Assembly (NCBI RefSeq): GCF_000969415.1
Contig: NZ_JZEX01000087.1
Coordinates: forward strand, 1 to 64,000
Origin: Devosia geojensis
GTDB taxonomy: Bacteria; Pseudomonadota; Alphaproteobacteria; Rhizobiales; Devosiaceae
Direction: 5' to 3'
DNA: 64,000 nucleotides
Part shown: positions 25,973 to 43,450 of the stretch, in pieces
How the letters are laid out: every line of letters begins with the position of its first letter
Numbering within the stretch: position 1 is the first letter of the stretch
Program-made: the position numbers and the translations under genes
The notes under the pieces: model-generated
Database searches by the model: none
The model's input: the letters and a program-made list of their open reading frames with translations, nothing else
What the model was told of the DNA's origin: nothing

Positions 25973-25982
25973 GCGACCCCCA

Positions 25983-26042: not shown

Positions 26043-27617
26043 ATGAAAATTGGTTCGGGAGCGAGCGCGGCTGCGGCGGGACGGTCGATCGTACATGGCC
26101 GCTATATGCTGCTCAGGGCCCTGGATGACCATCGGGTCGAGACGCTGGAGAACGCAGCCCTGCTGCAGGTCGATGGCCGAATCGCGCAGATCGGCAGCTT
26201 TGCCGAGATCGTCGGCGCCAATCCCGGCCTCGAGGTGCTGGGCGGTCCCGACGCCCTGGTCGTGCCGGGTTTCGTCAACAGCCACCACCATGTCGGTGTC
26301 ACGCCGGTGCAGCTCGGTAGCCCGGATCTGCCTCTGGAACTCTGGCTGACCCACCAGATCCGTCACAAGATTCCAGATCTTTATCTCGATACGCTCTTTT
26401 CCGCCTTCGAGCTGGTCGCCTCGGGCGTGACCGCGGTGCAGCATCTGGGACGGATGAAAGCGGCACCGGTCGGTGCGTGGCCGGAGACGGCGAGCGCGGT
26501 GATCAACGCCTACCGAGACCTCGGCATGCGCGTCAGCTATGCGTTCTGCAACCGGGACCAGCACCGGCTGGTCTATGCCGACGACGAGGTCTTCGTCCAA
26601 AGCCTGCCGGTCGGGCTGCAGGATGAAACCCGGTCGTTCCTCGCGCCGACGCACTTCCGGCTGGAGGACTTCGAGACCGAGTATTTGCTGCCGATGATGG
26701 AGCGCTTCGGCGTCCGCAACGATCCGCTGGTCCGCCTGTGGCTCGCGCCCATAAACCTGGAACGCGCGTCCGACCGGCTGCTGACGTTGACGGCCGAATG
26801 GGCCCAGCGTTACGGCATGGGCATTCACCTGCACCTGTCCGAGACCGCCTACCAGAAGGAGTTCTCGCGCCGCCGGTTCGGCAAATCGTCCGTGGCGCAT
26901 CTGGCCGACATCGGCTTTCTCGGTCCGCACCTGACGCTCGGCCACGGCACCTGGATCGACGAGGCCGACCTCGACCTCATCCATCGCCACGGCGTCTGCA
27001 TCTGCCATAATGCCAGTTCCAACCTGCGGCTGCGCAGCGGCATCGCGCCGGTGAATGCGTTCCTCGAGCGCGGCATCCCGGTGGCCCTCGGCATAGACGA
27101 AGCCGGCCTCAACGACGATCGCGACATGCTGCAGGAGATGCGGCTGGTCAAGCACCTGCACTGCGAACCCGGCCTCTACCGGCAGACCGTCACCCCGGCG
27201 CAAATCTTCCGCATGGCAACGGAAAACGGTGCCCGCGCGATCGGCTTTGGCGACGAGATCGGCAGCATCGCGGTCGGCAAGCGCGCCGATCTCGTCGTCC
27301 TCGACTACCGCAAGCTCGCCTATCCTTACCTCGACGAGGCCGCGGATCCCGTCTCTGCTCTCGTCTACCGCGCCAAGAGCGCGCACGTCATCGCCACCAT
27401 GATCGAGGGCCGGGCCGTCTACCGTGACGGCCGGTTCACCTTTGTCGACCGGGACGCGGCCCTGGCTGCCCTCTCGGCGGACCTCGATCGCCCGCTGCGC
27501 GCAGAGGAGGCAGCCCGCGCGGAATTCTCCAAGAAGATCCTGCCTCATATCAAGGCTTTTTACCGAGACTGGGAGCTTCCTTCGGGGGAACCCTGGTACC
27601 GGCTCAACGGCCGCTGA
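26043..27617 (+). CDS. Amidohydrolase, cytosine deaminase/TRZ-ATZ type (COG0402)
   Basis: A 524-residue metal-dependent hydrolase. The beta-strand 1 metal site reads FVNSHHHVG, the next is GIHLHLSET, then LGHGTWID and the aspartate-bearing LGIDEAGLNDDRDM. N- and C-terminal segments form the composite beta domain of the superfamily (ERADLVVLDYRKL-like end, here KRADLVVLDYRKL). Relatives deaminate or dechlorinate purines, pyrimidines and s-triazines or open cyclic amidines. It is longer than the usual 450 residues. A GntR palindrome in its promoter and divergence from GntR-1 place it in the heterocycle regulon. Substrate unknown. Confidence 0.88.
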   Translation: MKIGSGASAAAAGRSIVHGRYMLLRALDDHRVETLENAALLQVDGRIAQIGSFAEIVGANPGLEVLGGPDALVVPGFVNSHHHVGVTPVQLGSPDLPLELWLTHQIRHKIPDLYLDTLFSAFELVASGVTAVQHLGRMKAAPVGAWPETASAVINAYRDLGMRVSYAFCNRDQHRLVYADDEVFVQSLPVGLQDETRSFLAPTHFRLEDFETEYLLPMMERFGVRNDPLVRLWLAPINLERASDRLLTLTAEWAQRYGMGIHLHLSETAYQKEFSRRRFGKSSVAHLADIGFLGPHLTLGHGTWIDEADLDLIHRHGVCICHNASSNLRLRSGIAPVNAFLERGIPVALGIDEAGLNDDRDMLQEMRLVKHLHCEPGLYRQTVTPAQIFRMATENGARAIGFGDEIGSIAVGKRADLVVLDYRKLAYPYLDEAADPVSALVYRAKSAHVIATMIEGRAVYRDGRFTFVDRDAALAALSADLDRPLRAEEAARAEFSKKILPHIKAFYRDWELPSGEPWYRLNGR

Positions 27618-27697
27618 CGGCAAGCTGCCACGGACTGGAGAGCGTCCGGCAGGTCACCCTTGCGCAATCGACGTTTGCATATTTGGTAGGCACCGGA

Positions 27698-27757
27698 ATA
27701 TCCTGCACAGGATATCAACAACCATGGTTGACACCCGATATTCCCTTGGCATACCAT
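27698..27757 (+). promoter_or_regulatory. Promoter with two operators before the NMT1-type ABC importer
   Basis: TTGACA (27728-27733) lies 18 bp from TACCAT (27752-27757). A GntR-like TTGGCATACCAT (27746-27757) covers the -10. Upstream, ATATCCTG-CA-CAGGATAT (27698-27715) is a separate, perfect 8-bp-arm palindrome unlike the GntR sites, so a second regulator may act here. Confidence 0.5.
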
Positions 27758-27793
27758 CTGAATGCCAAGGGGATTGGCGAAACGGGGATGAAC

Positions 27794-28792
27794 ATGAAAC
27801 ACATCAGGAAGAGCGCATATTGGGCCGCGGGCATTGCGCTGGCCGGCGCCTTTGCAGGCCCGGTCCACGCTCAGGAGCTGACGCCGGTGACGGTCCGCCT
27901 GGCGTTCCTTGCCGGCGGCATCGACGCGCCGTTCTTTGTCGCTCTCGGCAAGGGCTATTTCGAGGAAGAGGGCCTCGACGTCGAGATCATCGACGGCGAC
28001 GGCAGCACCGGCACGATCCAGGCGGTCGGCAACGGCAGCGTCCAGCTCGGCAATGCCGGGCTTGGTGCCCTGGTCCAGGCGTCCGCCGCGGCAGACTTCG
28101 ACAACATCACCGCCGTCTTCGGGCTGGTGCAGAAGGATCCCTCGGCGATCATCGCCCTCGAGGGATCGGGCATCACCGAGCCCAAGGACATCGAAGGCAA
28201 GCGTTTCGCCACCGAGGCGGGCAATCTCTCGGACGGCATGATCACGGCCTTCGCCGAGGTGAACGGCATCGACATGGACACGGTCGAGATCATCATCACC
28301 GACAGCTACCAGCAGGCGCTGCTGCGCGGCGACGCCGACTTCATCAATGGCTGGGCCAACCCGGATGGCGACCATGTGGCGGCGTTCTCGCCGATCGAGG
28401 AGCCCATCCTCTTTGCCGACCACGGCGTCAACCTGCTGGGCTCCAGCGTCATCGTGCGCAAGGATTGGCTCGCGGAGCACGAGGAGTTGGTCCGCGGGTA
28501 CCTGCGTGCGCTGACCAAAGCGCATGCCGATGTGCAGGCCGATCCGCAGGAGGCGCTCGAATACTTCATGCAGGCCCGCCCGGACGCCGATGCCGAGGCG
28601 ATCGCGCAGGAGATTGAGGTGATGGAGAAGTACCGCCATACCGCCAGCACCGAGGGCAAGCCCTTCGGCTATGTCGATCTGGCCGATCTCGAGCTGACCA
28701 TTTCGCTGCTGGAGACCTATGCCGACGTCGAGCCGGGCGAGATCACCCCCGATGAGGTCTATACCGACGCCTACCTGCCGGCCGCTGAATAA
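27794..28792 (+). CDS. ABC transporter substrate-binding protein (NMT1/SsuA type)
   Basis: A 332-residue periplasmic protein with a signal peptide ending near GPVHA-QEL. The mature start VRLAFLAGGIDAPFFVALGK and the YFEEEGLDVEIIDGDGST block are typical of the NMT1/THI5-like family that binds thiamine precursors, sulfonates, nitrate, hydantoins and similar small polar molecules. The ATG at 27794 is preferred because GGGG sits at a proper distance; 27788 is an alternative. It heads the importer genes, with an SDR gene between it and the ATPase. Confidence 0.88.
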   Translation: MKHIRKSAYWAAGIALAGAFAGPVHAQELTPVTVRLAFLAGGIDAPFFVALGKGYFEEEGLDVEIIDGDGSTGTIQAVGNGSVQLGNAGLGALVQASAAADFDNITAVFGLVQKDPSAIIALEGSGITEPKDIEGKRFATEAGNLSDGMITAFAEVNGIDMDTVEIIITDSYQQALLRGDADFINGWANPDGDHVAAFSPIEEPILFADHGVNLLGSSVIVRKDWLAEHEELVRGYLRALTKAHADVQADPQEALEYFMQARPDADAEAIAQEIEVMEKYRHTASTEGKPFGYVDLADLELTISLLETYADVEPGEITPDEVYTDAYLPAAE

Positions 28793-28807
28793 ACCCGATG
28801 AGACCGA

Positions 28808-28830
28808 GGCGCCGCGCCTGTCGCGGCGCC
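28808..28830 (+). terminator. Intercistronic hairpin after the NMT1-type binding protein
   Basis: A perfect 9-bp stem GGCGCCGCG / CGCGGCGCC with a CCTGT loop, followed by TTCC, lies 16 bp after the stop and before the SDR ribosome-binding site. Confidence 0.6.
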
Positions 28831-28856
28831 TTCCGCTCCACCACAGGATCGCCACG

Positions 28857-29645
28857 ATGGATCTGGGACTGCGCGACAAGTGTGCGCTCGTATTGGGCGC
28901 CAGCCAGGGGCTCGGCCTCGGCGTTGCCAGGGCCCTGCTTGCCGAAGGCGCGCAGGTGGCGATCTCCTCTCGCTCGGCGAGTGCGCTCGAAGAGGCGCGC
29001 GACGCGCTGCCGGACGACCAGCGCTCCCGCTGCTTCATCGTGCCTGCCGATCTTGGCGCGGAGGGCGCTGCCGACGCGATCGCCGCCGCTGCCCGGCGTG
29101 AGCTGGGCGCGGTCGACATCCTCGTCAACAACAGCGGCGGACCGCCGCCGGGAAGTCCCAGCGCCACCTCGGTCGAGGAGGTAGAGCGCCAGTTCGCCCG
29201 CATGGTCACCCCGTTGCTGGCGCTGACGCTCGCGGTGGCTCCCGCCATGCGCGAACGCGGCTGGGGCCGCATCCTGACCATTGCCTCGAGCGGCATCGTC
29301 CAGCCCATCGCGCACCTGCCGATCTCGAATAGCCTGCGATCGGCGCTGGTCGGGTTCATGAAAACACTAGCCGGCGAGGTTGCAGCCGACGGCGTGACCG
29401 TCAATGTGCTCGCCCCCGGCCGCATCGCCACCGATCGGACGCGCAGCATCGACACCGCGCTTGCCGAGCGTACAGGCCGATCAAAGGAAGACGTCGCACG
29501 CGAATCCGCCGGGAGCATACCAGCCGGGCGCTATGGAACGGTCGAGGAGTTCGGCGCCGTCGCCGCTTTCCTTGCCGGCGCCGGCGCCAGCTACGTGACC
29601 GGCTCGATCATCCGTGTCGACGGGGGAGCCATCCGCTCGATCTAG
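28857..29645 (+). CDS. Short-chain dehydrogenase/reductase-like protein without the YxxxK pair
   Basis: A 262-residue Rossmann protein. The cofactor motif LGASQGLGLG, the NNSGG strand and the catalytic-serine region TIASSGIV are present, and it ends with YVTGSIIRVDGG. Where the catalytic Tyr-x3-Lys should be, the sequence reads PISNSLRSALVG, so the tyrosine and lysine are replaced by Ser and Arg. A group of divergent SDRs shares this change, and its chemistry is unclear. The gene sits between the binding protein and ATPase genes of the importer, which ties it to the imported compound. Confidence 0.8.
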   Translation: MDLGLRDKCALVLGASQGLGLGVARALLAEGAQVAISSRSASALEEARDALPDDQRSRCFIVPADLGAEGAADAIAAAARRELGAVDILVNNSGGPPPGSPSATSVEEVERQFARMVTPLLALTLAVAPAMRERGWGRILTIASSGIVQPIAHLPISNSLRSALVGFMKTLAGEVAADGVTVNVLAPGRIATDRTRSIDTALAERTGRSKEDVARESAGSIPAGRYGTVEEFGAVAAFLAGAGASYVTGSIIRVDGGAIRSI

Positions 29646-29686
29646 CGGAGGGTTGGCAGCAGCAACAACGTCGCGGAGGGTAAAGG

Positions 29687-30505
29687 GTGAACGACATGAG
29701 CATGAATGTGGAGGCTGCGGCGCCGGTCAAGCCTCACATCCGGATTTCGCGCGTTTCCAAGACGTTCAAAGGACGCAAGGGCGATGTCCACGCCCTCAGC
29801 GACATCGACCTGACCATCGGTCGTGGCGAGTTCGTCTCGGTCGTGGGGCCGAGCGGCTGCGGCAAGAGCACGCTGCTCATGCTGCTGTCGGGCCTGACCC
29901 CATACTCTCTTGGCAAGATCGAGGTCGGGGAGAAGCTCATCTCGTCGCCCAATTCCGACGTCGGCATCGTCTTCCAACAGGACGTGCTGCTCGAATGGCG
30001 CAGCGCCCTGCAGAACGTGCTGATCCAGGCCGAAATCCGCAAGGCGCCGCTCGAGGCGGCTCGCGAGCGGGCCCGCGAACTGTTGAAGATGGTGTCGCTG
30101 CAAGACTTCGAGAACGCCTATCCCAAGGAGCTCTCGGGCGGCATGCGCCAGCGCGTCTCCATCTGCCGGGCGCTTCTCCACAAGCCGCCTCTGCTGCTCA
30201 TGGATGAACCCTTCGGCGCCCTCGACGCCATGACGCGCGATCAGCTGCAACTCGATCTGCTGCGCCTATGCGCCGACAACGCCATGACCGTGTTCTTCAT
30301 CACGCATTCGATCTCGGAAGCCGTGTTCCTCAGCGACCGGGTAGTGGTGATGTCGCCGCGCCCCGGTCGGGTCGAGCGCATCATCGACATAGACCTTCCG
30401 CGTCCGCGGCGCTTGGCGATGCGCGAGGATCTCAAATTCACCGCCTATACCCGCGAACTGACCGAGATCTTCAAAGGTCTCGGCGTCTTCCGCGAAGAGG
30501 TTTGA
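29687..30505 (+). CDS. ABC transporter ATPase (SsuB/TauB type)
   Basis: The 272-residue ATPase energises the NMT1-type importer. Walker A is GPSGCGKST, the signature is LSGGMRQRVSICRALLH, and Walker B is LLLMDEPFGALDAMTR. The start is a GTG at 29687 behind GGAGGG (29675-29680). The permease follows after two bases. Confidence 0.92.
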   Translation: MNDMSMNVEAAAPVKPHIRISRVSKTFKGRKGDVHALSDIDLTIGRGEFVSVVGPSGCGKSTLLMLLSGLTPYSLGKIEVGEKLISSPNSDVGIVFQQDVLLEWRSALQNVLIQAEIRKAPLEAARERARELLKMVSLQDFENAYPKELSGGMRQRVSICRALLHKPPLLLMDEPFGALDAMTRDQLQLDLLRLCADNAMTVFFITHSISEAVFLSDRVVVMSPRPGRVERIIDIDLPRPRRLAMREDLKFTAYTRELTEIFKGLGVFREEV

Positions 30506-30507
30506 TC

Positions 30508-31326
30508 ATGGCCACCATCACCGAAGCCGCTCCGCCGGCACATCCCTTGCGCCTCTCGCTTCGCGTCCTCGGCAACATCTCTCCGGCCTTCTGGACCCTG
30601 GTCCTCCTGGTCGTCCTCTGGGAGCTCGCGGTGCAGATCAACCAGGTGCCGGTCTATATCCTGCCCGCGCCCTCGCGCGTGGCCGCAGAAATCATCGACT
30701 ACTGGCCGCGCCTGATGATCAACGCGGGCGTCACCGTCAGCGAAATCCTTATCGGCTTCGGTTGCGCCATTGCCGTCGGCGTGCCGCTCGCGGTGCTGGT
30801 CACCTATTCCCGGGTGGCCGAAAGGGCGATCTACCCGCTGATCGTCGCCTCGCAGACGATCCCCAAGGTCGCCATCGCGCCGCTGCTGATGGCCTGGTTC
30901 GGCTATGGGCTGACGCCCAAGATCGTCATCGTGGTGCTGCTCTCGTTCTTTCCCATCGTCATCAATTCGGTGGTGGGCCTCAAAGCGTCGTCGGCCGAGA
31001 TGCTCTACCTCGCCCAGTCCATGGGTGCGACGCCCTGGCAGACCTTCTGGAAGTTCCGCCTGCCGCAGGCGCTGCCCTACATCTTCGCCGGCCTCAAGCT
31101 TGCGACGGTCCTCGCGGTGATCGGGGCGGTGGTTGCCGAGTTCATCGGTGCCGACCGCGGCCTCGGCTATGTGATCGTCGTTGCCGGTTCGAGCTTCAAC
31201 ATTGCCCGCCAGTTCGCCGCCATCATCGTCATCTCGGCGATCGGCATGGTCTTCTTTGTCATCATCGAGCTCTTGGAGCGTCTCGTCGTGCCGTGGAAGA
31301 ACACGGCCGTGGTCGCAAGCGAATAA
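30508..31326 (+). CDS. ABC transporter permease (SsuC/TauC type)
   Basis: A 272-residue inner-membrane protein with six predicted helices. The EAA-type loop is SSAEMLYLAQSMGATPWQTF followed by PQALPYIFAGLK, as in sulfonate, nitrate and pyrimidine-precursor permeases. It forms a homodimeric channel with the ATPase upstream. A hairpin and then a DapA-family gene follow. Confidence 0.92.
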   Translation: MATITEAAPPAHPLRLSLRVLGNISPAFWTLVLLVVLWELAVQINQVPVYILPAPSRVAAEIIDYWPRLMINAGVTVSEILIGFGCAIAVGVPLAVLVTYSRVAERAIYPLIVASQTIPKVAIAPLLMAWFGYGLTPKIVIVVLLSFFPIVINSVVGLKASSAEMLYLAQSMGATPWQTFWKFRLPQALPYIFAGLKLATVLAVIGAVVAEFIGADRGLGYVIVVAGSSFNIARQFAAIIVISAIGMVFFVIIELLERLVVPWKNTAVVASE

Positions 31327-31330
31327 CGAA

Positions 31331-31352
31331 GGCGGAGGATCCTGCCTCCGCC
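31331..31352 (+). terminator. Hairpin between permease and DapA-family gene
   Basis: GGCGGAGG / CCTCCGCC with a 6-nt loop lies directly after the permease stop. It may be a processing or partial termination site within the operon. Confidence 0.5.
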
Positions 31353-31377
31353 AGTCCTGAAACGTGAGGAGCCACAC

Positions 31378-32310
31378 ATGTCCTACCGGCTGGATGAAAC
31401 CGCCTCGGGGGTCTACGTCATCGCCGTCACCCCCTTCACCGATGCCGGTCTTGTCGACGAAGCCAGCATCGACCGGGTGGTGGAGTTCTACCTGGAAAGG
31501 GGAGTCACCGGCATCACCATCCTCGGCATGATGGGCGAGGCCCACAAGCTGACTTCGGATGAAAGCCGGCAGGTGATGAACCGCTATCTGGCCCGCGTCG
31601 ACGGCCGCGTGCCGGTGGTCGTGGGCGTTTCCCAGCCTGGCACCGACCCTCTGGTCGCATTCGCCAAGGAGGCCATGGACGCGGGTGCCGCGGGCGTCAT
31701 GCTGGCTCCGGTCAACACCCTGCGCACCGAAGAGCAGATCCAGGGTTATTTCTCGGGCGTTCTCGATCGCCTCGGCAGCGTGCCGGTGGTGCTGCAGGAC
31801 TATCCGTTCGTCACCGGCGTCAACATCTCCGTCGACACCCTGCGCGTCATCTTCGACAGGTATGCCAATGTCGTCATGCTCAAGCACGAGGATTGGCCGG
31901 GCCACAGCAAGCTCACGCGCCTGCGCGCTTCTGCCGGCCGGCAGGTCAGCATACTGGTCGGCAATGGCGGCCTCTACTTGCCGCAGGAGCTGGCGCGCGG
32001 CGCCTACGGCGCCATGACGGGGTTCGCCTACCCGGAAATGCTGGTCGAGGTATGCGCGCACTTCGCCAGGGGGAATGCGGATCTAGGTGAAGACCTCTTC
32101 GACATCTACCTGCCGCTGCTGCGCCATGAGGCGCAACCGGTCATCGGCATTGCGCTGCGCAAGGAGCTGCTGCGTCGCCGCGGCGCCATCGCCTCGGCCC
32201 ATGTGCGTTCGCCCGGCCCGCGCCTTAGCGCCGAGGACCATCGCGAGCTCGACCGCCTGGTCGAGCGCCAGCACCGCCGGCTCGCCGGCGCCTCCCTGGC
32301 CGCGGCCTGA
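31378..32310 (+). CDS. DapA/NanA-family aldolase-type lyase
   Basis: A 310-residue TIM-barrel protein of the dihydrodipicolinate synthase family. The Schiff-base lysine is Lys169 in VVMLKHED and the catalytic tyrosine is Tyr142 in LQDYPFV. The family start YVIAVTPFTDAGLVD and the GITILGMMGEAHKLT loop are present. Members condense or cleave pyruvate with aldehydes, or decarboxylate and dehydrate 2-oxo acids. No lysine-biosynthesis genes are near, so a role in breaking down the imported compound is more likely than DapA itself. The RidA gene follows after nine bases. Confidence 0.85.
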   Translation: MSYRLDETASGVYVIAVTPFTDAGLVDEASIDRVVEFYLERGVTGITILGMMGEAHKLTSDESRQVMNRYLARVDGRVPVVVGVSQPGTDPLVAFAKEAMDAGAAGVMLAPVNTLRTEEQIQGYFSGVLDRLGSVPVVLQDYPFVTGVNISVDTLRVIFDRYANVVMLKHEDWPGHSKLTRLRASAGRQVSILVGNGGLYLPQELARGAYGAMTGFAYPEMLVEVCAHFARGNADLGEDLFDIYLPLLRHEAQPVIGIALRKELLRRRGAIASAHVRSPGPRLSAEDHRELDRLVERQHRRLAGASLAAA

Positions 32311-32319
32311 TCGGTTGCC

Positions 32320-32805
32320 ATGACGCGCGCCGATCTGCCTCCTCCGCCGCCACAGGCCGGCGCCTACCGGCCTGCCGTGATCGTGGGGAACATGGCTTAC
32401 CTTTCGGGATTTGGTCCGCGCGACGCCGCCGGAGGACCCCTGCGCGGCATGGTCGGCCGTGACCTCGATCTCGAGGCTGCAAGGGCCGCCGCCCGCAATG
32501 TCGGGCTCTCCATTCTTTCGGTGCTGCAGGAGACACTGGGCGATCTCGGCCGGGTGGCGCAGATCGTGCGGATCACGGGCATGGTCTACGCGGTGCCGGA
32601 CTTTACCGAACACCCCAAGGTGATCGACGGCTGCTCGCAGCTGCTGCTCGACGTCCTCGGCGAGCGCGGGGCGCATGCGCGCATGGCCTATGGCGTCGCC
32701 TCGCTGCCCAACGGCTCGCCGGTTGCCATCGACTGCTTCTGCCAGATCAGGCCTAGAGGTCCAGCACCAGCCGGTCGCTCCTGGCGCCCGAGCAGCAGAT
32801 CATGA
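32320..32805 (+). CDS. RidA/YjgF-family protein
   Basis: A 161-residue member of the Rid family, which hydrolyses reactive enamines and imines in the cytoplasm. The substrate-binding arginine region is seen as HARMAYGVASLPNGSPVAID, and LSGFGPRDA is the conserved first strand. The last 20 residues are an Arg/Pro/Ser-rich tail. The 3' end overlaps the convergent reductase gene by 53 bp. Rid proteins often accompany pathways releasing 2-aminoacrylate-like or ring-opened nitrogen compounds, consistent with this neighbourhood. Confidence 0.82.
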   Translation: MTRADLPPPPPQAGAYRPAVIVGNMAYLSGFGPRDAAGGPLRGMVGRDLDLEAARAAARNVGLSILSVLQETLGDLGRVAQIVRITGMVYAVPDFTEHPKVIDGCSQLLLDVLGERGAHARMAYGVASLPNGSPVAIDCFCQIRPRGPAPAGRSWRPSSRS

Positions 32806-33814
32806 TCAACTTGTTGGTCGCCTTCTCGCGCGGCGACAGGACGTTGTCCTTGTGGTCGCACTCGCCCTCGAGCACGACCGTCTCGCAGGTGCCGCACACC
32901 CCTTCGCGACAGGAATGGGCGACGCGCACGCCATTGGCTTCGAGGGTCTCCATGATGCTTTGTCCGGCGGGCACGAAGAACTCCTTGTCCTGGCGTTTCA
33001 AGACCACGGTGAAGTCCTGCGTCGGGCGTCCGTTGGTGCCGGCGAAGTGCTCGACATGCACGTTGTCCTGCGGCCGCCAGCCGGCGGACGCCTTGAACGT
33101 GTCGATCATGCGCGCGGGACCGCAGCAATAGACATGCGCGGCCTTCGGGATGCCGGCGGCGAGCTTGAGCAGGGGCATGACCTTGCCGGCCTCGTCGTCG
33201 AAATGGAGGTGCACGCGGCCGGGTTCCCGGGCGTCCAGCGCCTCGAGTTCGATGAGAAATGCCGCACTGACGCGGTTGCGCGCTGCATAGAAGAGCTTCC
33301 ATGGGCGCCCCAACGCCTCGAGCCGGCGGATCATGGAAAGGATCGGCGTGACGCCGATGCCGCCGGCAAAGAAGGCGCTGAGCTCGGCGTCCTCGACCAG
33401 CGGGAAGGTGTTGTGGGGCGGGTCGACCATGAGGACGTCGCCGACCTGCAGTTTCTCGTTGATGTAGGCGGACCCGCCGCGGCTGGCGACGTCGCGGTTG
33501 ACCGCGATGACGTAGCGGTCGCGCATCTCCGGCCCGTTGATCAGCGAATATGAGCGGCTGAGCCCGCCCGGGAGCTTAAGGTTGATATGCGCGCCGGCAG
33601 TGAACGCGGGCAGCGCCGCAGCATCATCCGCCACCAGCTCGATGGAGCGGATCGTCTCGGCGACTTGCCGGATGGCGTCGACCCGCAGGGCGAGCGGCTC
33701 CGCTCCGGCAGGCGTGGAGTGGCGTCCTGCCGCATGGTCGCCCGAAACGCCAGGTGTGGCGACATCCGACGCGTGCGCGCCGGATGCCATGGCGATGTCG
33801 AGGCCTTCGCTCAT
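32753..33814 (-). CDS. PDR/VanB-family oxidoreductase (Rieske oxygenase reductase)
   Basis: A 353-residue reductase with a flavin-binding barrel (about 35-140; SRSYSLINGP), an NAD-binding domain (about 145-250; AFFAGGIGVTPILSMIRRLE) and a C-terminal plant-type 2Fe-2S ferredoxin domain with CREGVCGTC and a fourth Cys in MICC. It passes electrons from NAD(P)H to the Rieske oxygenase encoded next door; the two genes overlap by four bases (ATGA). Residues 1-35 are low-complexity. Confidence 0.92.
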   Translation of the reverse strand: MSEGLDIAMASGAHASDVATPGVSGDHAAGRHSTPAGAEPLALRVDAIRQVAETIRSIELVADDAAALPAFTAGAHINLKLPGGLSRSYSLINGPEMRDRYVIAVNRDVASRGGSAYINEKLQVGDVLMVDPPHNTFPLVEDAELSAFFAGGIGVTPILSMIRRLEALGRPWKLFYAARNRVSAAFLIELEALDAREPGRVHLHFDDEAGKVMPLLKLAAGIPKAAHVYCCGPARMIDTFKASAGWRPQDNVHVEHFAGTNGRPTQDFTVVLKRQDKEFFVPAGQSIMETLEANGVRVAHSCREGVCGTCETVVLEGECDHKDNVLSPREKATNKLIMICCSGARSDRLVLDL

Positions 33815-35142: not shown

Positions 35143-35151
35143 TGGTCTCTC

Positions 35152-36225: not shown

Positions 36226-36261
36226 GGTGGTGTCCCTCCTGTGGTTTCAACATTGCACGCC

Positions 36262-36275
36262 AGTGGTATACCACT
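36262..36275. promoter_or_regulatory. GntR operator before the nitrilase-Rieske operon
   Basis: AGTGGTATACCACT is a perfect 14-bp palindrome and the best match to the FCD GntR consensus in the window. It is 37 bp from the nitrilase start and about 200 bp from the divergent GntR-2 start. The 36226-36476 gap has no gene. Confidence 0.65.
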
Positions 36276-36476
36276 AGCATTAGCGCAGTTGAGGAACAAT
36301 GCAAGAGGCGAGTACGAAAAAGCTGCCGATTTCACAGGCTCGCCGGCAGGGTGCCTGTTTTTTGTGCCAGGCGGATGGGTAAATCTTTCTGATTACAGAG
36401 GATACCAGTGATATCCCGGCTGTGTTCCTTGTCGCTTATGCCTATATGAGAGGAAGCAACAGGAGGCTGATGCGAG

Positions 36477-37181
36477 ATGGGTGAACTCTTGGACGCAACC
36501 CCCGACGGTGAAGACCTGGATCTTATTGGCGGCGAAGGCGGGCAGCGGCCCAACTTGACCGAGCAGGTCTACGAACAGCTCATCGAGCTCTTGATCTCGG
36601 GCGAGCTGAAGCCCGGCGACGTGATCACGGAACGCCGCATGGCTGAACGCCTCAACGCCTCCCGCACGCCGATCCGCGAGGCCCTGGGACGCCTCGAGGC
36701 GGAGGGTCTCGTTTACAAGCAACCCAATCGCGGCGTCACGGTCAGCCCTTTTTCGACCGAAGCCTTCGTCGATATCCTCAACGTGCGCCAGCTCCTCGAA
36801 GCAGAGGCTGCCTATCTCGCCTCAGGCAAGATTGCGGAGGAGACCGCCGCCAGGATTCGCGACGCGCTGGAAACGCTGGCAAAAAAGCCGCGGCCGACCC
36901 TTTCGGAGATCTGGCAGGTCGATGACATGCTCCACGGCGAGATCGCCGATGCGGCCGGCAACCCGCTGATGGCGGCGATGATCCGCGATCTGCGCCGCCG
37001 CACGCACGTGTTCAACGCCTACCGCAACCCGATCACGCCGCGCTTCAGCGTCGAGGAAAACCGCCGGCTGCTGGATGCCGTGGCCAGCGGCGACCGCGAC
37101 CGTGCCCGCAAGGCAATGTCCGAGCATATCGAGACGGTCAAGGTCGCCATCATCGAGCGCCTGTCCGGCGTCCTGCGCTGA
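36477..37181 (+). CDS. GntR-family regulator, FCD subfamily (GntR-2)
   Basis: A 234-residue regulator with a winged HTH at about 20-90 (VITERRMAERLNASRTPIREALGRLEAEG) and an FCD ligand domain at about 100-225. It closely resembles GntR-1 in the ligand domain (MIRDLRRRTHVFNAYRNP). It is divergent from the nitrilase-Rieske operon and convergent with the cyclic amidohydrolase gene, five bases away. Operators of the TGGTNNACCA kind occur before several neighbouring units, and either GntR protein could bind them. Confidence 0.88.
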   Translation: MGELLDATPDGEDLDLIGGEGGQRPNLTEQVYEQLIELLISGELKPGDVITERRMAERLNASRTPIREALGRLEAEGLVYKQPNRGVTVSPFSTEAFVDILNVRQLLEAEAAYLASGKIAEETAARIRDALETLAKKPRPTLSEIWQVDDMLHGEIADAAGNPLMAAMIRDLRRRTHVFNAYRNPITPRFSVEENRRLLDAVASGDRDRARKAMSEHIETVKVAIIERLSGVLR

Positions 37182-37186
37182 CGCGG

Positions 37187-38527
37187 TCAGCCGCGGGGCA
37201 CGTAGCGCCCCGGTTGCGGCGCGATCGCCGCCCCGTCCCAGACCTGCCGGCCCCGCACGAAGGTTGCGACGGGACGCGCGGCAAAGGTTTCGCCATCGTA
37301 GGCACTCCAGCCGGGGCCGTTCGGATTCGCTTTGGCATCATAACGGTAAGGGCCCGGCTGCAGCACGGTGACGTCGGCCTCGAGGCCCGGCTGCAACCGA
37401 CCCTTGCGGGAGAGGCCGAAAAACGCCGCCGGCCGCTCGGCCAGCAGCGAGGCACAAAGGCGCGCCGCCTCATCCGCGCCATAGCGCTCCGCCGCATCCG
37501 AAAAGAACACCGGCAGGAGTGTTTCGAGCCCGGGCATTCCGGCCGCCACGTCGAAGATCGAAGACAGGTTCTTGCGCTCGAGCGGCCAGGCGCTGTGGTC
37601 CGACGAAACGAAGGCGCACCCGTTTTGCTCGAGCACCGACCAGAGCGCTTCCTTCCGATCCGGGCGGATGGGCGGGTTGACCTTGAGCAGGCCGCCGAGC
37701 CGTCGCATGTCCTCGTCGCCATCGAAGTGCAGGTAGTGGACGCACATCTCCGCCGTTGCCGGTTTGCCCGTTTCACGGGCCCGGCGCACGAGCGCGAAGC
37801 CGTCGGGCGTCGAGATGTGGACGATGTGGAGCGGCGTGCCGACCCCGGCCCCCAGCGCCAGGAATGCCGCGGTTGCCGCGAGCTCGGCTACCTCGGGGCG
37901 GCTGGGGCTGTGGAACTCCGGCCCGGTCCGGCCTTCGTCCCGGTGAACCTGCGTGAAGCGGCGCACGATCTCCTGGTCCTCGTTGTGCAGCCCGAGCGGC
38001 AGCCCCGAACGTTCCAAGAGTTCGATCAGATAGCGCGTGGAGGCATTGTCGATGCGGGGGAACCGGTGCGGATGAGCTTCGAACGAAGAGATCTTGAAGG
38101 CGCACACACCTTCCTCGACCAGAGCCTGCACGTCGTTGGTGTTCGGGTGCGCCGGCACGGTGCCGTAGAGCGCAACGTCGCAGATCGAATAAGCTTCGAC
38201 CGCGGCGATCTTGTCCTTGAGCAGGGCTGCCGTGGTGATCGGATCGGGCTCGTCATAAGGCATGTCGACGATGGTGGTCACCCCGCCCATCACGGCTGCC
38301 CGGCTGGTGGGCGCGAGGCCCGCAAACCCGATCTGACTTCCCGCATGCGTCTGGCCGTCGATCGTTCCCGGCAGCACGTAGCTGCCGGTATGATCGATGG
38401 CGCGGCGGGCTTGCGGGGGCTCTCCGTCCCCGATAGCCGCGATCCGCTCCCCCCTGATCCCGATCCAGCCCTCCTCGATGATCCCATCGGGAGTGACCAC
38501 CCGGCCGGCTATCAAGGTGTCAAGCAT
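37187..38527 (-). CDS. Cyclic amidohydrolase (dihydroorotase/allantoinase/hydantoinase type)
   Basis: A 446-residue dinuclear-metal hydrolase of the AllB/PyrC/HydA group. The first metal motif reads PGTIDGQTHAG (Asp57, Gln59, His61), so the usual HxH is QxH; this variant is also seen in some dihydroorotases. The lysine to be carboxylated is in VCAFKISSFE. Later ligands are in LGLHNEDQE and HIVHIST, and the catalytic Asp in VSSDHSAWP. The start at 38527 follows GGAG. Its promoter region contains a TGGTGTACCA site. It should open a cyclic amide or ureide ring; the substrate is unknown. Confidence 0.87.
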   Translation of the reverse strand: MLDTLIAGRVVTPDGIIEEGWIGIRGERIAAIGDGEPPQARRAIDHTGSYVLPGTIDGQTHAGSQIGFAGLAPTSRAAVMGGVTTIVDMPYDEPDPITTAALLKDKIAAVEAYSICDVALYGTVPAHPNTNDVQALVEEGVCAFKISSFEAHPHRFPRIDNASTRYLIELLERSGLPLGLHNEDQEIVRRFTQVHRDEGRTGPEFHSPSRPEVAELAATAAFLALGAGVGTPLHIVHISTPDGFALVRRARETGKPATAEMCVHYLHFDGDEDMRRLGGLLKVNPPIRPDRKEALWSVLEQNGCAFVSSDHSAWPLERKNLSSIFDVAAGMPGLETLLPVFFSDAAERYGADEAARLCASLLAERPAAFFGLSRKGRLQPGLEADVTVLQPGPYRYDAKANPNGPGWSAYDGETFAARPVATFVRGRQVWDGAAIAPQPGRYVPRG

Positions 38528-38576
38528 GGCAACTCCGATCGAATTACAAAACTTTGGCGTGCACTCGGAATTCCAA

Positions 38577-38586
38577 TGGTGTACCA
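38577..38586. promoter_or_regulatory. GntR operator between cyclic amidohydrolase and NIPSNAP genes
   Basis: TGGTGTACCA has perfect TGGT/ACCA arms around GT and lies 50 bp from each divergent start region, so one bound repressor could control both genes. Confidence 0.55.
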
Positions 38587-38638
38587 AGATCGGGCGAGTT
38601 TGGAAAGCCTGACGCAACAGACAAGTTCGGGATGACCG

Positions 38639-39253
38639 ATGATCTACGACCTGACCATTCTCTCACTGCTGCCAAACACCTTGGGCGCGGTGATGCCCCT
38701 CTTACCCAAGACCTATGAGGGCTTCTCCTCGACGGGCACGCCGCTCGGGGCATTCTCGTGCGAGTTCGGCGTGCTCAACCGGTTCGCGTTCATCACCGCC
38801 TATGACAGCCCGCAGGACCTGGCGACCGAACGCGCCCGCCTGATGGAGGCCGATGACCCTTACGGCATCGCACCCTATCTCGGCGGGGTGCAGAGCACGG
38901 CCTTCCGGCCGCTGTTCTTCATGCAGCCCATCGAGCTGGGCGAATGGGGACCCTTCTATGAGTTCCGCACTTATACGCTCGCCCCCAATGGCCTGCCCGA
39001 AACGGCGGAGGCCTGGAGCAAGATCGTCGAGCGCCGCAACGCCATGTCCAAGCTCCTGATGGTGATGGGCTCGATCGAGGAGGGGCCGCAGAAGATGGTC
39101 CACATCTGGCCCTACAAGACCATCGAAGACCGCGTGAAGGCGCGGGCGGAGGCCAGCAAGGAAGGCATCTGGCCGCCGCCGGGGGGCTCGGCCAAGCTGA
39201 CGGCGCTGCAGTCCGAACTTTTCGTTGCGACCGGCTTTTCCGGCCTTAAGTAG
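38639..39253 (+). CDS. NIPSNAP-family protein
   Basis: A 204-residue protein made of two related dimeric alpha/beta-barrel halves: a shorter N-terminal half (about 1-95) and a NIPSNAP-typical half (about 100-200; PFYEFRTYTL, HIWPYKTIEDRVKAR). Bacterial NIPSNAP proteins have no settled function but are frequent beside catabolic operons. It is divergent from the cyclic amidohydrolase with the GntR palindrome between them. The ribosome-binding site is weak. Confidence 0.8.
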   Translation: MIYDLTILSLLPNTLGAVMPLLPKTYEGFSSTGTPLGAFSCEFGVLNRFAFITAYDSPQDLATERARLMEADDPYGIAPYLGGVQSTAFRPLFFMQPIELGEWGPFYEFRTYTLAPNGLPETAEAWSKIVERRNAMSKLLMVMGSIEEGPQKMVHIWPYKTIEDRVKARAEASKEGIWPPPGGSAKLTALQSELFVATGFSGLK

Positions 39254-39258
39254 GCCGG
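39240..39258. terminator. Bidirectional terminator candidate
   Basis: CCGGCCT-TAAGT-AGGCCGG overlaps the NIPSNAP stop codon and lies 14 bp from the convergent molybdenum hydroxylase stop. There is no T-run after it. Confidence 0.45.
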
Positions 39259-39271
39259 GCATCCGCGCCGC

Positions 39272-41617
39272 TCAGCCGGCGGCGCGGGCCTCGCGCTTCA
39301 GCCGTTCCATCGCCATCAACACGCGCTCGGGCGTTGCAGGCGAATCGAGGCGTGAGGCGAACCGATAGCCGGCGACGCTTGCCGCAGCCATGCCGAGAGC
39401 CTCGAACACCGAGATCGCCAGCATGATCGGCGGCTCGCCCGTCGCCTTGCTGTTGCGTACGGTCGGCGCCGGATTTACCGACCACTCGGCCAGCGCGACG
39501 TTGAACACCCGGGGCCGGTCGGATGCCACGGGGATCTTGTAGGTGGAGGGCGCATGGGTGCGCAGCCGCCCCTCCTTGTCCCACCACAGTTCCTCCGTGG
39601 TCAGCCACCCCATGCCCTGGATGAAGCCGCCCTCGATCTGGCCGATATCGATGTCGCGGTTGATGGACCGGCCGACGTCCTGGAGGATGTCGGTGCGCAG
39701 CACCTTGTATTCGCCGGTCAGCGTGTCGACGGCGACCTCCGAACATGAGGCGCCATAGGTGAAATAGAGATAGGGGCTGCCCCTGCCGCTCTTGCGGTCC
39801 CAGTGGATATGCGGCGTCTTGTAGAACCCGGTGGCGGAAAGCGGCACGCGGGCGGCATAGGCCATCTCGACGAAGTCCGGCCATGCAACGAGCTGCGATC
39901 CGGCGCGCACCGCCTCGAACTCGAAGCTCACCTGCTCCTCATGGACGCGGAACGTCTCGACAGCAAACGCGACCAGCCGGCGTTTCAATGTCCTTGCCGC
40001 ATCGAGCGCCGCCATGCCGTTGAGATCGGTGCCGAGCGAGCCGGCGGTCGGCGAGGCGTTCGGCACCTTGTCGGTTGCCGTCGGCGTGACGCGGATGCGC
40101 CGCAAGGCGATGTTGAGTTCATGCGCGACCACCTGGGCGACCTTGGTATGCAGGCCTTGGCCCATCTCCGTGCCCCCGTGGTTGAGGTGCACGGAGCCGT
40201 CGCGGTAGAGGTTGAGCAGCGCCGCCCCCTGGTTCATCAGCTTCTTGGAGAAGCTGATCCCATATTTGACCGGCACCAGCGCGATGCCGCGCCTGACGAA
40301 CTCGCTCGACCTGTTGAAGGCGAGGATCTCCTCGCGCCGGCGCCGGTAGTCGCTGCTCGCCTCCAGCTCGGCGACGATGCGGGCCATGATGTTGTCATGG
40401 ACTTCCTGGCCGTAGGGCGTCGTGTTGCGATCGGCTCCGTCATAGAGATTGATCTTGCGGATATCGAGCGTATCGCGCCCGAGGGCGTAGGCGATCTCCT
40501 CGATGATGCGCTCTGCGGCGAGAATGCCTTGCGGTCCGCCATAGCCGCGGAAGGCGGTGTTGGAGACAGTGTTGGTCCGCAAGAGCTTGGATTCCACCCG
40601 CATGGCCGGGAAGAAGTAGGCATTGTCGGCATGCATGAGGGCGCGGTCGGTAACGCCGCGCGAGAGATCCTCGGAATGGCCGCATCGGGCGTTGAAGACC
40701 GCATCGAGGGCCTCGATCCGGCCGGCCTCGTCGAACCCGAGCCGGTAGTCGACGACAAAATCGTGGCGCTTGCCGGTGATGACCATGTCGTCGTCCCGGT
40801 CCGGGCGGCACTTGACCGCCCGCCCGAACTTGCGGGCGGCGACCGCCGCCACGGCGCCGAAGAGGGTGCCCTGCGTTTCCTTGCCGCCGAAGCCGCCGCC
40901 GAGCCGACGCACATGTACGCGCACACCGTTGGCTTCGAGCCCGAGCACGCGGGCAACGACCTCCTGGGTGTCGCTGGGATGTTGGGTTGCGGTATGAAGC
41001 AGCATCTCGCCGTCTTCGCCGGGGATGGCGAGGGACACCTGGCCCTCGAGATAGAAGTGCTCCTGGCCGCCGATGGTCATCCGGCCGGCAAGGGTGTGCG
41101 GCGCACGAGCGAGCGCCTGCCCGGCATCGCCGCTGGCGATGACCATGCCGGGTGCGACCACATTCCCGCCGTTCTCAAGTGCGTCGAGTGCCGTAAGGCG
41201 ATGGGGCAGGGCGCGATAGGCAACCTTGGCGAGCCGTGCGGCCCGGCGCACGGCGTCTCGGGTGCGGCCTACCACCGCGAACAGCGGTTGGCCGTGATAG
41301 CTGGTGCGGTCCACGCAAAAGAGGGGATCATCGCCTATGCCGGCCGGACTGATGTCGTTCCGGCCCGGGATGTCGGCACTGGTCACGACGCCCACGACCC
41401 CCGGCGCAGCCTCGACCGCGCTGAGGTCGAGCCCGACGATCTGCGCGTGAGCATGCGCCGAAAGGCCGAGATAGGCATGGAGCGTGCCTGCCGGCTCAGC
41501 CATGTCGTCGATATATTCCGCCCGCCCCGTCACATGCTTGTGGGCGGATTCGTGCGGCACAAGGGCCTGATCGTCCCTAAGGCGGTCGAGCGCTTGCCTC
41601 TGGAGCAGGTCATCCAT
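39272..41617 (-). CDS. xdhB: Xanthine dehydrogenase-type molybdenum hydroxylase, large subunit
   Basis: A 781-residue molybdopterin-cytosine or -pterin subunit. Typical motifs are RRLGGGFGGKE, FRGYGGPQG near the active site and the catalytic glutamate in KATGEPPIMLA, which is the GEPP signature of xanthine dehydrogenases rather than CO dehydrogenases. It hydroxylates N-heterocycles next to nitrogen using water. The ATG at 41617 overlaps the stop of the small-subunit gene by eight bases and has GGGGAG upstream. The gene symbol reflects family only; the substrate need not be xanthine. Confidence 0.88.
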   Translation of the reverse strand: MDDLLQRQALDRLRDDQALVPHESAHKHVTGRAEYIDDMAEPAGTLHAYLGLSAHAHAQIVGLDLSAVEAAPGVVGVVTSADIPGRNDISPAGIGDDPLFCVDRTSYHGQPLFAVVGRTRDAVRRAARLAKVAYRALPHRLTALDALENGGNVVAPGMVIASGDAGQALARAPHTLAGRMTIGGQEHFYLEGQVSLAIPGEDGEMLLHTATQHPSDTQEVVARVLGLEANGVRVHVRRLGGGFGGKETQGTLFGAVAAVAARKFGRAVKCRPDRDDDMVITGKRHDFVVDYRLGFDEAGRIEALDAVFNARCGHSEDLSRGVTDRALMHADNAYFFPAMRVESKLLRTNTVSNTAFRGYGGPQGILAAERIIEEIAYALGRDTLDIRKINLYDGADRNTTPYGQEVHDNIMARIVAELEASSDYRRRREEILAFNRSSEFVRRGIALVPVKYGISFSKKLMNQGAALLNLYRDGSVHLNHGGTEMGQGLHTKVAQVVAHELNIALRRIRVTPTATDKVPNASPTAGSLGTDLNGMAALDAARTLKRRLVAFAVETFRVHEEQVSFEFEAVRAGSQLVAWPDFVEMAYAARVPLSATGFYKTPHIHWDRKSGRGSPYLYFTYGASCSEVAVDTLTGEYKVLRTDILQDVGRSINRDIDIGQIEGGFIQGMGWLTTEELWWDKEGRLRTHAPSTYKIPVASDRPRVFNVALAEWSVNPAPTVRNSKATGEPPIMLAISVFEALGMAAASVAGYRFASRLDSPATPERVLMAMERLKREARAAG

Positions 41618-43073
41618 AGGCAAGCTCCCCGATTCGCGCCGGCATGCCCTGCATTTCCGCCCAGAACCGCACCAGCAGGTTCTGCGCCGCGATCATCCGG
41701 TATTCGGAGGAGGCGCGCCAGTCGCTCAAGGGCGAGAAGTCGAAGGGCAGGGCCTGCGCCGCCGAGTCGACCGTGGCGCGTGTCCATGGTTTTGCGATCA
41801 GCACCGCCTCCATCTGCCTGGCGCGTTTGGGCGTGCCGGCCATGCCGCCATAGGCGATCGCGATGTCGGACACCAGACCGTCCTCCAGCCGCAGCCGGAA
41901 GGCGCCGAGAACGCTGCTGATGTCCTCGTCCAGGCGCTTGCTGACCTTGTAGGCGGCAAAGTGCTCGCCGGCCTGCGGCAGCGGCACGGTCACGCTTTCG
42001 ATGAACTCGCCCGGCAGGCGGTCCTGCCTGCCGTAGTCGATGAAGAAATCCTCGAGCGGCACCTGACGACGCTCGCCGCCGCGGCGCAGCGTCAGCGTTG
42101 CGCCCAATGCGATCAGCGGGGGAGGGGTGTCGCCGATGGGCGAGCCGTTGGCGATATTGCCGCCGATGGTGCCGGCGTTGCGCACCTGACGCCCGCCGAT
42201 CCGGCTCCAGAGTTCGGATAGCTGCGGCAGATGCCGGGTGATCGCTGCCTCGGCGGAGCTATAGGACGTGCGGGCGCCAATGACCAGGCTGTCGCCCTCG
42301 ACGATGATGCCGTCGAGATCGTCGACATGGCTGAGGAACACCATGACCGAGGGCTCGCGCAGGAACTTGGTGACCCACACGCCAATGTCTGTCGCGCCCG
42401 AGACGATGGTGGCCTCCGGCATTTCCAGCAGCACCTCGGCCAGATCATCCGCCCCGCGCGGCAGGATGGCGAGGCTCGCGCCGGTTCCGGTCACCACGCG
42501 ATCGCGATCGCGCAGCGCCAGGAGTTTGTCCCGCATCGCCGCCCTTCCCGTATTGAGCCGCTCATCGGCGGCGTCGCCGTAGTCGGCAATGGACTGCGCC
42601 GCGCGAAGGATCGGCTGGTAACCGGTGCAGCGGCAGAGGTTGCCCTGAAGGTTGCGCTCCACGTCGGCAACCGAAGGCATGGGATTGTCCAGCCAGTCGG
42701 CGTAAAGCGACATCACGATTCCGGGCGTACAAAAACCGCATTGGCTGGCGTGATTGTCGACCATGGACTGCTGCACCGGATGCAGCTCCGCATCGGACGA
42801 AATGCCTTCGACCGTGACGAGGTGCGCGCCGTCGAGGCTCGCAACGAAGGTGATGCAGGCATTGACGCTTCTGTAGACGAGGTCGCCGGCTGGATCGATG
42901 CGGCCGACGAGGACGGTGCAGGCCCCGCAGTCTCCTTCTGCGCATCCCTCCTTGGTGCCGCATAGCGCCAGGTCCTGCCGGATCCATTCTAGGACTGTGC
43001 GCCGCGCGGGCACATCTGCCAGCTCCACGTATGCGTCATTGAGAAAAAATCGCGTGTGGTCTCGTAACGCCAT
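41610..43073 (-). CDS. xdhA: Xanthine dehydrogenase-type small subunit (2Fe-2S plus FAD)
   Basis: A 487-residue XdhA-type protein. The first 2Fe-2S cluster has Cys38, Cys44, Cys49 and Cys52 (CGTKEGCAEGDCGAC). The second has CGFCTPG and CRCTGY. The FAD-binding domain (about 190-370) contains AGTIGGNIANGSPIGD, and a CO-dehydrogenase flavoprotein C-terminal domain follows. It passes electrons from the molybdenum subunit to NAD+. A degenerate GntR site lies 24 bp upstream of the start. No xdhC-type maturation gene is visible nearby. Confidence 0.9.
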   Translation of the reverse strand: MALRDHTRFFLNDAYVELADVPARRTVLEWIRQDLALCGTKEGCAEGDCGACTVLVGRIDPAGDLVYRSVNACITFVASLDGAHLVTVEGISSDAELHPVQQSMVDNHASQCGFCTPGIVMSLYADWLDNPMPSVADVERNLQGNLCRCTGYQPILRAAQSIADYGDAADERLNTGRAAMRDKLLALRDRDRVVTGTGASLAILPRGADDLAEVLLEMPEATIVSGATDIGVWVTKFLREPSVMVFLSHVDDLDGIIVEGDSLVIGARTSYSSAEAAITRHLPQLSELWSRIGGRQVRNAGTIGGNIANGSPIGDTPPPLIALGATLTLRRGGERRQVPLEDFFIDYGRQDRLPGEFIESVTVPLPQAGEHFAAYKVSKRLDEDISSVLGAFRLRLEDGLVSDIAIAYGGMAGTPKRARQMEAVLIAKPWTRATVDSAAQALPFDFSPLSDWRASSEYRMIAAQNLLVRFWAEMQGMPARIGELAYG

Positions 43074-43450
43074 CTCACACCTGCTGCTGGCGTGAATGGT
43101 ATACGAACGGTCGACCGCACTCAAGCCGAGTCATTTAAGCCGAAAGCCGCCGCCACGATTGGCGCCGTACGGCTCCGCGTTCTTCGAGAAATCCCACTTC
43201 TGGATAGGAACGAAGGTCGTCTGCCGTCAGCTTAGCAGCACGCGGTTAACAGCTACAATTGCCTGTTGGCTGCCGTTGTTCGACATGACGGTGCAGGCCG
43301 CGCTCTGATGAGCCTCAGCCGTTTGCACGTCAGAATGGTTTCTGCTTCGGCCATGAGCGCCGCTCCGGCATCTTTCGGCGAGCGCTGGCCGAAAGCCACC
43401 TCCTGGGCTGAGGCCTATGACCGCGTCGCCGAACTCGCCGCAGCCGGGCG
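43074..43450. other. Intergenic gap with degenerate GntR site
   Basis: TGGTATACGA (43097-43106) differs by one base from TGGTATACCA and lies in the xdhA promoter region. The rest of the 377 bp has only short, unconvincing open frames, including one from 43308 to 43466 (start MSLSRLHVRMVSASA) that I cannot assign. Confidence 0.4.

Follow-up and report, generated by a model that had tools for sequence, protein, structure and literature searches.

A syntenic gene cluster of Devosia geojensis with operator-like sites and a possible role in catabolism of acidic N-heterocycles or cyclic ureides

Xanthine dehydrogenase (XDH) anchors its purine with Glu802 and Arg880 and uses Glu1261 for catalysis, its canonical substrate pocket being formed by Phe914, Thr1010 and Val/Leu1011. 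In the ergothioneine pathway, to which the hydantoin-5-propionate amidohydrolase ErtD belongs, ergothionase, thiourocanate hydratase and a desulfhydrase stand alongside. The Rieske oxygenases PDO and IPDO of Comamonas testosteroni KF1 bind the carboxylate of their substrate with R244 and R234 respectively, and an R234 variant is without any activity (PMC12445078). Relatives of XDH, ErtD and these oxygenases lie close together at approximately 25.3-43.1 kb of a 64-kb stretch of Devosia geojensis DNA (contig NZ_JZEX01000087.1, positions 1 to 64,000, from an assembly of 4.47 Mb in 207 contigs), the whole of which is here called the window. We give an even chance to this cluster being a catabolic regulon under GntR control that serves the breakdown of an acidic N-heterocycle or cyclic ureide, a reading that rests on common synteny, on the operator-like sites that accompany each transcription unit and on the enzyme families.

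Synteny and operator-like sites

Gene calling and family scans place 16 genes in the cluster; the scans took in 14 of them, with the ABC ATPase and permease left out, and NCBIfam matches were judged among those listed, 25 at most for each protein. From left to right the order is a GntR regulator, GntR1 (−), a COG0402-type amidohydrolase (+), then substrate-binding protein (SBP)-SDR-ATPase-permease-DapA-RidA (+), reductase-Rieske-CN hydrolase (−), a second GntR regulator, GntR2 (+), a hydantoinase (−), a NIPSNAP protein (+) and the Mo hydroxylase genes XdhB and XdhA (−). The importer operon with RidA occupies 27794-32805 (+), the reductase, Rieske and CN hydrolase block 32753-36225 (−), and XdhB with XdhA 39272-43028 (−). 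An initial annotation had named these enzymes as occurring together at 26043-43073, and every one was confirmed by the gene calling and scans.

A genome-collection scan with the Rieske protein gave 281 relatives, the best 80 of which were used as two sets of loci, 32 with a Rieske protein 66-92% identical to that of the window and 48 with one 36-53% identical. A gene was taken as present at 40% identity or more over at least half of the query within the fetched stretches, and because several loci end at contig ends the absences are upper bounds. In the closer set the CN hydrolase, a nitrilase-fold amidase, is present in 31 of the 32 loci, reductase, GntR2 and ATPase in 30 each, NIPSNAP and permease in 29 each, SBP and DapA in 23 each, SDR and hydantoinase in 22 each and RidA in 21; the COG0402 gene is found in five and the Mo hydroxylase in two. 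GntR1 is left out of these figures because cross-hits to GntR2 swell its number. All eight of reductase, Rieske, amidase, GntR2, NIPSNAP, SBP, ATPase and permease occur in 23 of these loci, while among the 48 distant ones the same thresholds give a reductase homologue in one and the remaining non-transporter genes in none. The core is therefore a single inherited unit and not a chance grouping, with the Mo hydroxylase and the COG0402 gene as optional members. The gene-order comparison called for at the outset finds the core not scattered: synteny of Rieske, reductase, amidase, GntR, NIPSNAP and the NMT1-type importer holds in both Hyphomicrobiales and Rhodobacterales, with SDR, DapA-like, RidA and hydantoinase genes accompanying it in most syntenic loci. 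The boundaries first drawn were also right, since the flanking RpiR, Asp/Glu racemase and TRAP permease genes are found in none of the 32 related loci and operator-like sites mark the same limits.

Within the family the distribution is patchy: eight of 136 genomes, that of D. geojensis included, match the Rieske protein at E 1e-100 or better. In many relatives a second amidase paralogue adjoins GntR1 (54 amidase copies in 31 loci), a copy that the window does not have, and in one locus, L039, a creatininase-family gene (PF02633) takes the place of the missing amidase. A plasmid search with the Rieske protein (681 records) returned homologues all below 60% identity, and of three neighbourhoods read, two of them unannotated, none was the cluster; the same search with the amidase gave one weak match. 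No description of the gene combination was found in the open-access literature, subscription papers being outside the search.

Between the amidase and GntR2 lies AGTGGTATACCACT, a perfect 14-base palindrome. Allowing at most one mismatch, TGGTATACCA has five sites in the window, at 25989, 27747, 36264, 38577 and 43097, against 0.15 expected in 64 kb, and none of 100 shuffles matched that number. Each of the five goes with its own transcription unit or divergent pair, the Mo hydroxylase included, and no further site at this stringency occurs elsewhere in the 64 kb. Across the 32 related loci there are 119 intergenic matches and four genic ones, with at least one match in 30 loci, these matches not being independent because the loci are related; for 29 control palindromes of equal composition the same loci gave a mean of 1.2 and a maximum of 6 intergenic matches. 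The regulatory case for the palindrome is its location. The FCD regulator NanR of E. coli recognises GGTATA repeats, with which a GntR/FCD protein as putative binder of the palindrome is in keeping. One or both of the cluster's GntR proteins are assumed to be the regulator, and the units of the cluster are probably co-regulated.

In two genomes of the same genus (G034 and G066) further sites mark a second block, comprising another NMT1-type importer, an M20 hydrolase, a DapA gene and two SDR genes. The block lies at 2083-9833 of locus L196, where a serine-hydrolase-like gene is added (by eye), and at 6244-12811 of L215.

The features of the cluster are as follows, the operator-like sites coming from the motif scan.

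25280-26005, minus strand: GntR/FCD regulator 1, GntR1 (PF00392, PF07729), syntenic in relatives; start uncertain because the site at 25989 falls within the called 5' end
25989-25998: operator-like site TGGTACACCA, one mismatch
26043-27617, plus strand: COG0402-type amidohydrolase (PF01979), optional; start backed by five orthologues of 65-77% identity
27747-27756: operator-like site TGGCATACCA, one mismatch, ahead of the importer operon
27794-28792, plus strand: NMT1/THI5-type SBP (PF09084); start called at 27746, the ATG at about 27794 better matching a signal peptide (by eye)
28857-29645, plus strand: SDR-fold protein (PF13561) with SNxxR replacing YxxxK
29687-30505, plus strand: ABC transporter ATPase, from sequence reading and synteny only
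30508-31326, plus strand: ABC transporter permease, likewise from sequence reading and synteny only
31378-32310, plus strand: DHDPS/DapA-family lyase (PF00701), QDYP motif, Schiff-base Lys kept; nearest solved chain 3dz1
32320-32805, plus strand: RidA/YjgF-family protein (PF14588); the gene caller gave a later start, 32377
32753-33814, minus strand: Rieske reductase, FNR plus 2Fe-2S (PF00111, PF00175)
33811-35142, minus strand: Rieske oxygenase of LigXa_C/phthalate type (PF00355, PF19301), R237 aligned with a carboxylate-binding Arg
35152-36225, minus strand: nitrilase-fold amidase (CN_hydrolase, PF00795), Arg135 replacing the catalytic Lys
36262-36275: the perfect palindrome AGTGGTATACCACT, operator-like
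36477-37181, plus strand: GntR/FCD regulator 2, GntR2 (PF00392, PF07729)
37187-38527, minus strand: hydantoinase-like amidohydrolase, near to ErtD but outside it (NF058538)
38577-38586: operator-like site TGGTGTACCA, one mismatch, between hydantoinase and NIPSNAP
38639-39253, plus strand: NIPSNAP protein (PF07978) with two ferredoxin-like repeats; model pLDDT 92.1
39272-41617, minus strand: Mo hydroxylase large subunit, XdhB type (TIGR02965), an XDH paralogue, optional
41610-43028, minus strand: Mo hydroxylase FAD/2Fe-2S subunit, XdhA type (TIGR02963)
43097-43106: operator-like site TGGTATACGA, one mismatch, upstream of the Mo hydroxylase

To the immediate left of the cluster, at 20288-24994, lie the genes for an Asp/Glu racemase, a TRAP transporter and an RpiR regulator, which have no operator-like site and are not syntenic. 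Beside the Mo hydroxylase genes, at 43508-43915, is a 135-aa LacI-family C-terminal fragment without a DNA-binding domain, apparently a remnant, and at 16955-19066 a 703-aa protein adjoining transporter genes has no NCBIfam match at E 1e-5.

Enzymes and the substrates they suggest

The Rieske oxygenase is of the phthalate/LigXa type, having the Rieske ligands, the iron-binding His/His/Asp and the LigXa_C domain, and its nearest solved chains are 7fhr, IPDO (9ina) and PDO (7fjl). R237, present in all 32 aligned rows with the window among them, aligns with PDO R244 and, on an assumed chain offset of 23, with IPDO R234; given this conserved counterpart of a carboxylate-binding Arg, a carboxylated substrate is likely but not certain. 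The second anchors are not kept, the position of PDO R207 being Phe/Tyr and that of IPDO H257 being Asn261. Is the cluster, then, for an aromatic acid amide of plant or synthetic origin, the genes for the hydantoinase, the Mo hydroxylase and the COG0402 enzyme being bystanders? The phthalate/isophthalate type of the oxygenase would suit this, as would the pairing of amidase and Rieske, which is tighter than any other and with the importer makes up the minimal cluster in L041 and L042. It is decidedly unlikely all the same, as neither a ring-cleavage dioxygenase nor a CoA ligase is among the scanned cluster genes and the hydantoinase and Mo hydroxylase bear the common operator-like site.

In L048 (966-21091), the sole distant locus scanned with family models, a Rieske homologue of 48% identity sits among cytosine deaminase, allantoinase, HpxZ and AtzE genes, all over their cutoffs; the allantoinase also exceeds the broader dihydroorotase model, and a ureidoglycolate-lyase domain is in the same locus. 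Several amidohydrolases and further Rieske-like genes were also seen there. The context of L048 and the creatininase of L039 weakly favour ureide-type chemistry, for which the relation of the hydantoinase to ErtD and the M20 hydrolase of the second site-marked block are further grounds.

The Mo hydroxylase passes the curated xanthine dehydrogenase cutoffs with both subunits (XdhB 1202.4 against 849.5 bits, XdhA 622.7 against 467), and in alignment with the rat enzyme it retains counterparts of Glu802, Arg880 and Glu1261. With the purine-anchoring roles of the first two and the purine/ureide genes of L048, these scores speak for a purine route, in which an ordinary XDH would serve the degradation of purines or methylpurines via a ureide and the Rieske enzyme would be an N-demethylase or ring oxygenase. 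The window enzyme, however, looks like a second, cluster-specific paralogue. XDH is found at E 1e-150 or better in 60 of 61 family genomes searched, and G016 and G067 hold both a housekeeping XDH (59-60% identical to that of the window) and a cluster copy (72-74%). In the D. geojensis genome the window copy alone was found; as its xdhC (contig C13, 207-935) lies 207 bases from the contig edge, the housekeeping xdhAB genes were probably lost in an assembly gap. Moreover the canonical pocket is altered to Tyr, Ser and Lys: Phe914 is replaced by Tyr in all three cluster paralogues, the window's included, and residues 1010-1012 are Ser-Lys-Lys in the same three and in none of the 20 other distinct family patterns with letters there in the fetched loci. 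Also telling against a purine route, the Mo hydroxylase is missing from the fetched stretch of 30 of the 32 loci, three of the genomes concerned, searched whole (G013, G066 and G074), have no second XDH, and in a fourth, G121, a second copy, located elsewhere, is without Ser-Lys-Lys. We consider that route unlikely, and the Mo hydroxylase likely to be a purine oxidase whose scaffold has been adapted to a ring of more acidic character.

The best NCBIfam match of the hydantoinase is ErtD (NF058538), at 462 bits against a cutoff of 600, and the first metal-site His is Gln in both the window protein and true ErtD. A true ErtD is encoded elsewhere in the genome (contig C75, 794.6 bits). In a tree 22 ErtD rows, 20 over the cutoff and two just under, are on a separate branch together with one row from a plasmid module; 18 of the 22 cluster hydantoinase rows group, the window among them, and four (L034, L037 and two of L039) lie towards the modules considered below. 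Histidine-derived imidazole acids of the propionate, acetate or lactate type, undergoing oxidation to a hydantoin-5-alkanoate, with subsequent ErtD-like opening and decarbamoylation, draw support from that best match and the shared unusual Gln. They appear quite improbable as substrates in view of the sub-cutoff score and the position outside the true ErtD group, of the true ErtD held elsewhere, and of the 10 loci in 32 where no hydantoinase was found. An ergothioneine pathway was rejected for the window on the ErtD score, the tree and that separate ErtD; no ergothionase, thiourocanate hydratase or desulfhydrase was named among the scanned cluster genes, the rest of the genome not having been searched for them.

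For the amidase, PF00795, a model with pLDDT 91.5 and best solved matches that are amidases (E 2.5e-20) establish the nitrilase fold. Its Glu-Lys-Cys set is incomplete: Glu59 and Cys176 are kept, and Arg135, invariant in 35 of 35 rows, occupies the alignment position of the catalytic Lys of AmiE, formamidase and carbamoylases. Hydantoinase and CN hydrolase together recall the reductive pyrimidine route, some NMT1/THI5-type binding proteins bind pyrimidines, and the requisite enzyme families are those found by the scans. A route for acids of the pyrimidine type, for example the aminopyrimidine carboxylate to which thiamine is degraded, could accordingly be drawn, with the COG0402 enzyme deaminating, the Mo hydroxylase oxidising, a dihydropyrimidinase-like enzyme opening the ring and a ureidopropionase-like CN hydrolase at the end. 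Yet no dihydropyrimidine dehydrogenase is among the scanned genes, NMT1-type proteins bind sulfonates too, and the best match listed for the SBP is SsuA-like and below cutoff; this route is very unlikely.

The SDR protein has SNxxR in place of the classical Ser-Tyr-x3-Lys motif in all 22 aligned cluster rows, window included, and so do all 16 rows from modules or relatives that can be read at this position (a further row has no letters, and some genomes overlap). Its partner belongs to the DHDPS/DapA superfamily, K169 and G53-E54 being present in at least 95% of 22 rows. Pyruvate-type aldolases of this superfamily have a catalytic Tyr before the Pro of a YxVP-type motif. At that position the window enzyme and three of 23 cluster homologues have Tyr (QDYP) and the other 20 have Phe (QDFP), two of the three QDYP loci being those that carry the Mo hydroxylase. 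The aldol cleavage initially assigned is thus unproven, being one candidate reaction of the SDR/DapA pair beside dehydration and deamination. In other Hyphomicrobiales the pair has an ErtD-like or different amidohydrolase close by, frequently together with an Asp/Glu racemase, and the same grouping occurs in Agrobacterium, Martelella, Microvirga and Sulfitobacter plasmids. The modules read (L093, L094, L096, L097, L166, L168 and L170-L174) hold an amidohydrolase, mostly ErtD-like, with Asp/Glu racemase, DapA-like and SDR genes in varying subsets. Structure comparison of the NIPSNAP protein gave fold-level matches only (8-24% identity), putative monooxygenases first.

A proposed route and the points that weigh on it

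On the favoured reading the NMT1-type ABC importer would take up the substrate, an acidic N-heterocycle or cyclic ureide. In some species the COG0402 hydrolase would strip an amino or similar leaving group from a related compound and the re-tooled XDH paralogue would add a ring carbonyl, both optional enzymes feeding the common substrate. With O2 and NADH, the Rieske oxygenase-reductase pair would hydroxylate or N-dealkylate that substrate, R237 holding its carboxylate; the ErtD-like hydantoinase would open the cyclic ureide; and the amidase, in some relatives together with partners of M20 or creatininase type, would cleave the amide or carbamoyl bond so formed. The SDR/DapA-like pair and RidA might then turn the remaining hydroxy or imino acid into central metabolites. 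That all this amounts to an entire aerobic pathway not yet described, for N-heterocyclic acids or for cyclic ureides bearing a carboxylate, in Hyphomicrobiales and Rhodobacterales, with a new, Arg-for-Lys nitrilase subfamily, a Tyr/Lys-less SDR and a DapA-type enzyme forming a lyase pair, and an XDH paralogue re-tooled for an acidic ring, we put at somewhat short of an even chance.

Several findings weigh against the favoured reading. The motif has no genome-wide enrichment, a reversed-pattern control being equal or higher in 12 of 13 genomes for exact matches and higher in four of four with one mismatch. An exact site lies outside the cluster in each of G013, G074 and G017, with no cluster genes near those of G013 and G074. 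The D. geojensis genome has 26 sites at up to one mismatch, five of them within the cluster, and those on contig C15 and two on C167 are beside genes that by eye are unrelated. L041 and L042 have amidase, Rieske and importer only and lack an operator-like site. The clues to an acidic substrate are indirect, and carbocyclic phthalate-type enzymes have the Rieske Arg as well. Of four distant Rieske loci inspected by eye (L044, L048, L053 and L054), L048 alone showed the ureide context, and none of its purine/ureide genes is in the window. Ring opening by hydantoinase and amidase is not certain because the former was found in 22 of the 32 loci only and the family of the latter is without the usual catalytic Lys. 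Among the matches listed no cluster enzyme but XdhAB reaches a curated functional cutoff, and every cluster reaction is in consequence inferred.

The last point has another side: no curated pathway model fits the cluster, in agreement with the initial annotation, in which no known purine, pyrimidine, hydantoin or caffeine route was recognised. Of the single N-heterocycle or cyclic ureide pathway then envisaged, what stands is one catabolic unit with plausible cyclic-amide or ureide chemistry, the Mo hydroxylase and COG0402 enzyme falling outside the common route. For a complete route, as then proposed, the identity of the substrate would be needed. What there is, is a sharply bounded gene set with a predicted operator, pointing to an N-containing compound probably usable by several soil, plant-associated and marine Alphaproteobacteria. 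Since three conserved enzyme subfamilies with non-textbook catalytic residues are tied to one pathway, the identity of that compound would help to annotate many genomes, with a gain extending to the DapA-like/SDR modules of Rhizobiaceae, other Hyphomicrobiales and a Sulfitobacter plasmid.

Comparison with described systems

With XdhAB the Mo hydroxylase shares scores above both cutoffs, the catalytic Glu and the equivalents of the purine-anchoring Glu and Arg, but it differs in having Tyr for Phe914 and Ser-Lys-Lys at 1010-1012. ErtD of ergothioneine utilisation is related to the window hydantoinase and shares the Gln of the first metal motif, whereas the window protein is under the cutoff and on another branch, in a host with a true ErtD elsewhere. 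PDO and IPDO of C. testosteroni KF1 are of the same two-domain Rieske/LigXa_C type, their carboxylate Arg (R244 and R234) corresponding to R237, yet the R207 and H257 anchors are changed in the window enzyme and the gene partners are others.

The iad auxin-degradation locus of Variovorax likewise combines Rieske oxygenase, reductase and dehydrogenase for an N-heterocyclic acid, and it includes an acyl-CoA synthase step (PMC12633357), for which no counterpart was seen in the cluster. It was rejected as an identity for the cluster, its IadD/IadE oxygenase being of a different, two-subunit type; the solved chain 9o71 matches the Rieske-domain part only. As to the hpx/allantoin and AtzE-type ureide genes, the 48% Rieske homologue of L048 sits among them, but none is among the scanned window cluster genes. 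Finally, the hydantoinase/Asp-Glu racemase/DapA/SDR modules of Rhizobiaceae and others have importers of amino-acid or peptide type and, in the stretches read, no Rieske gene; what they have in common with the cluster, in varying subsets, are DapA-like, SNxxR SDR and ErtD-like homologues of about 42-63% identity.

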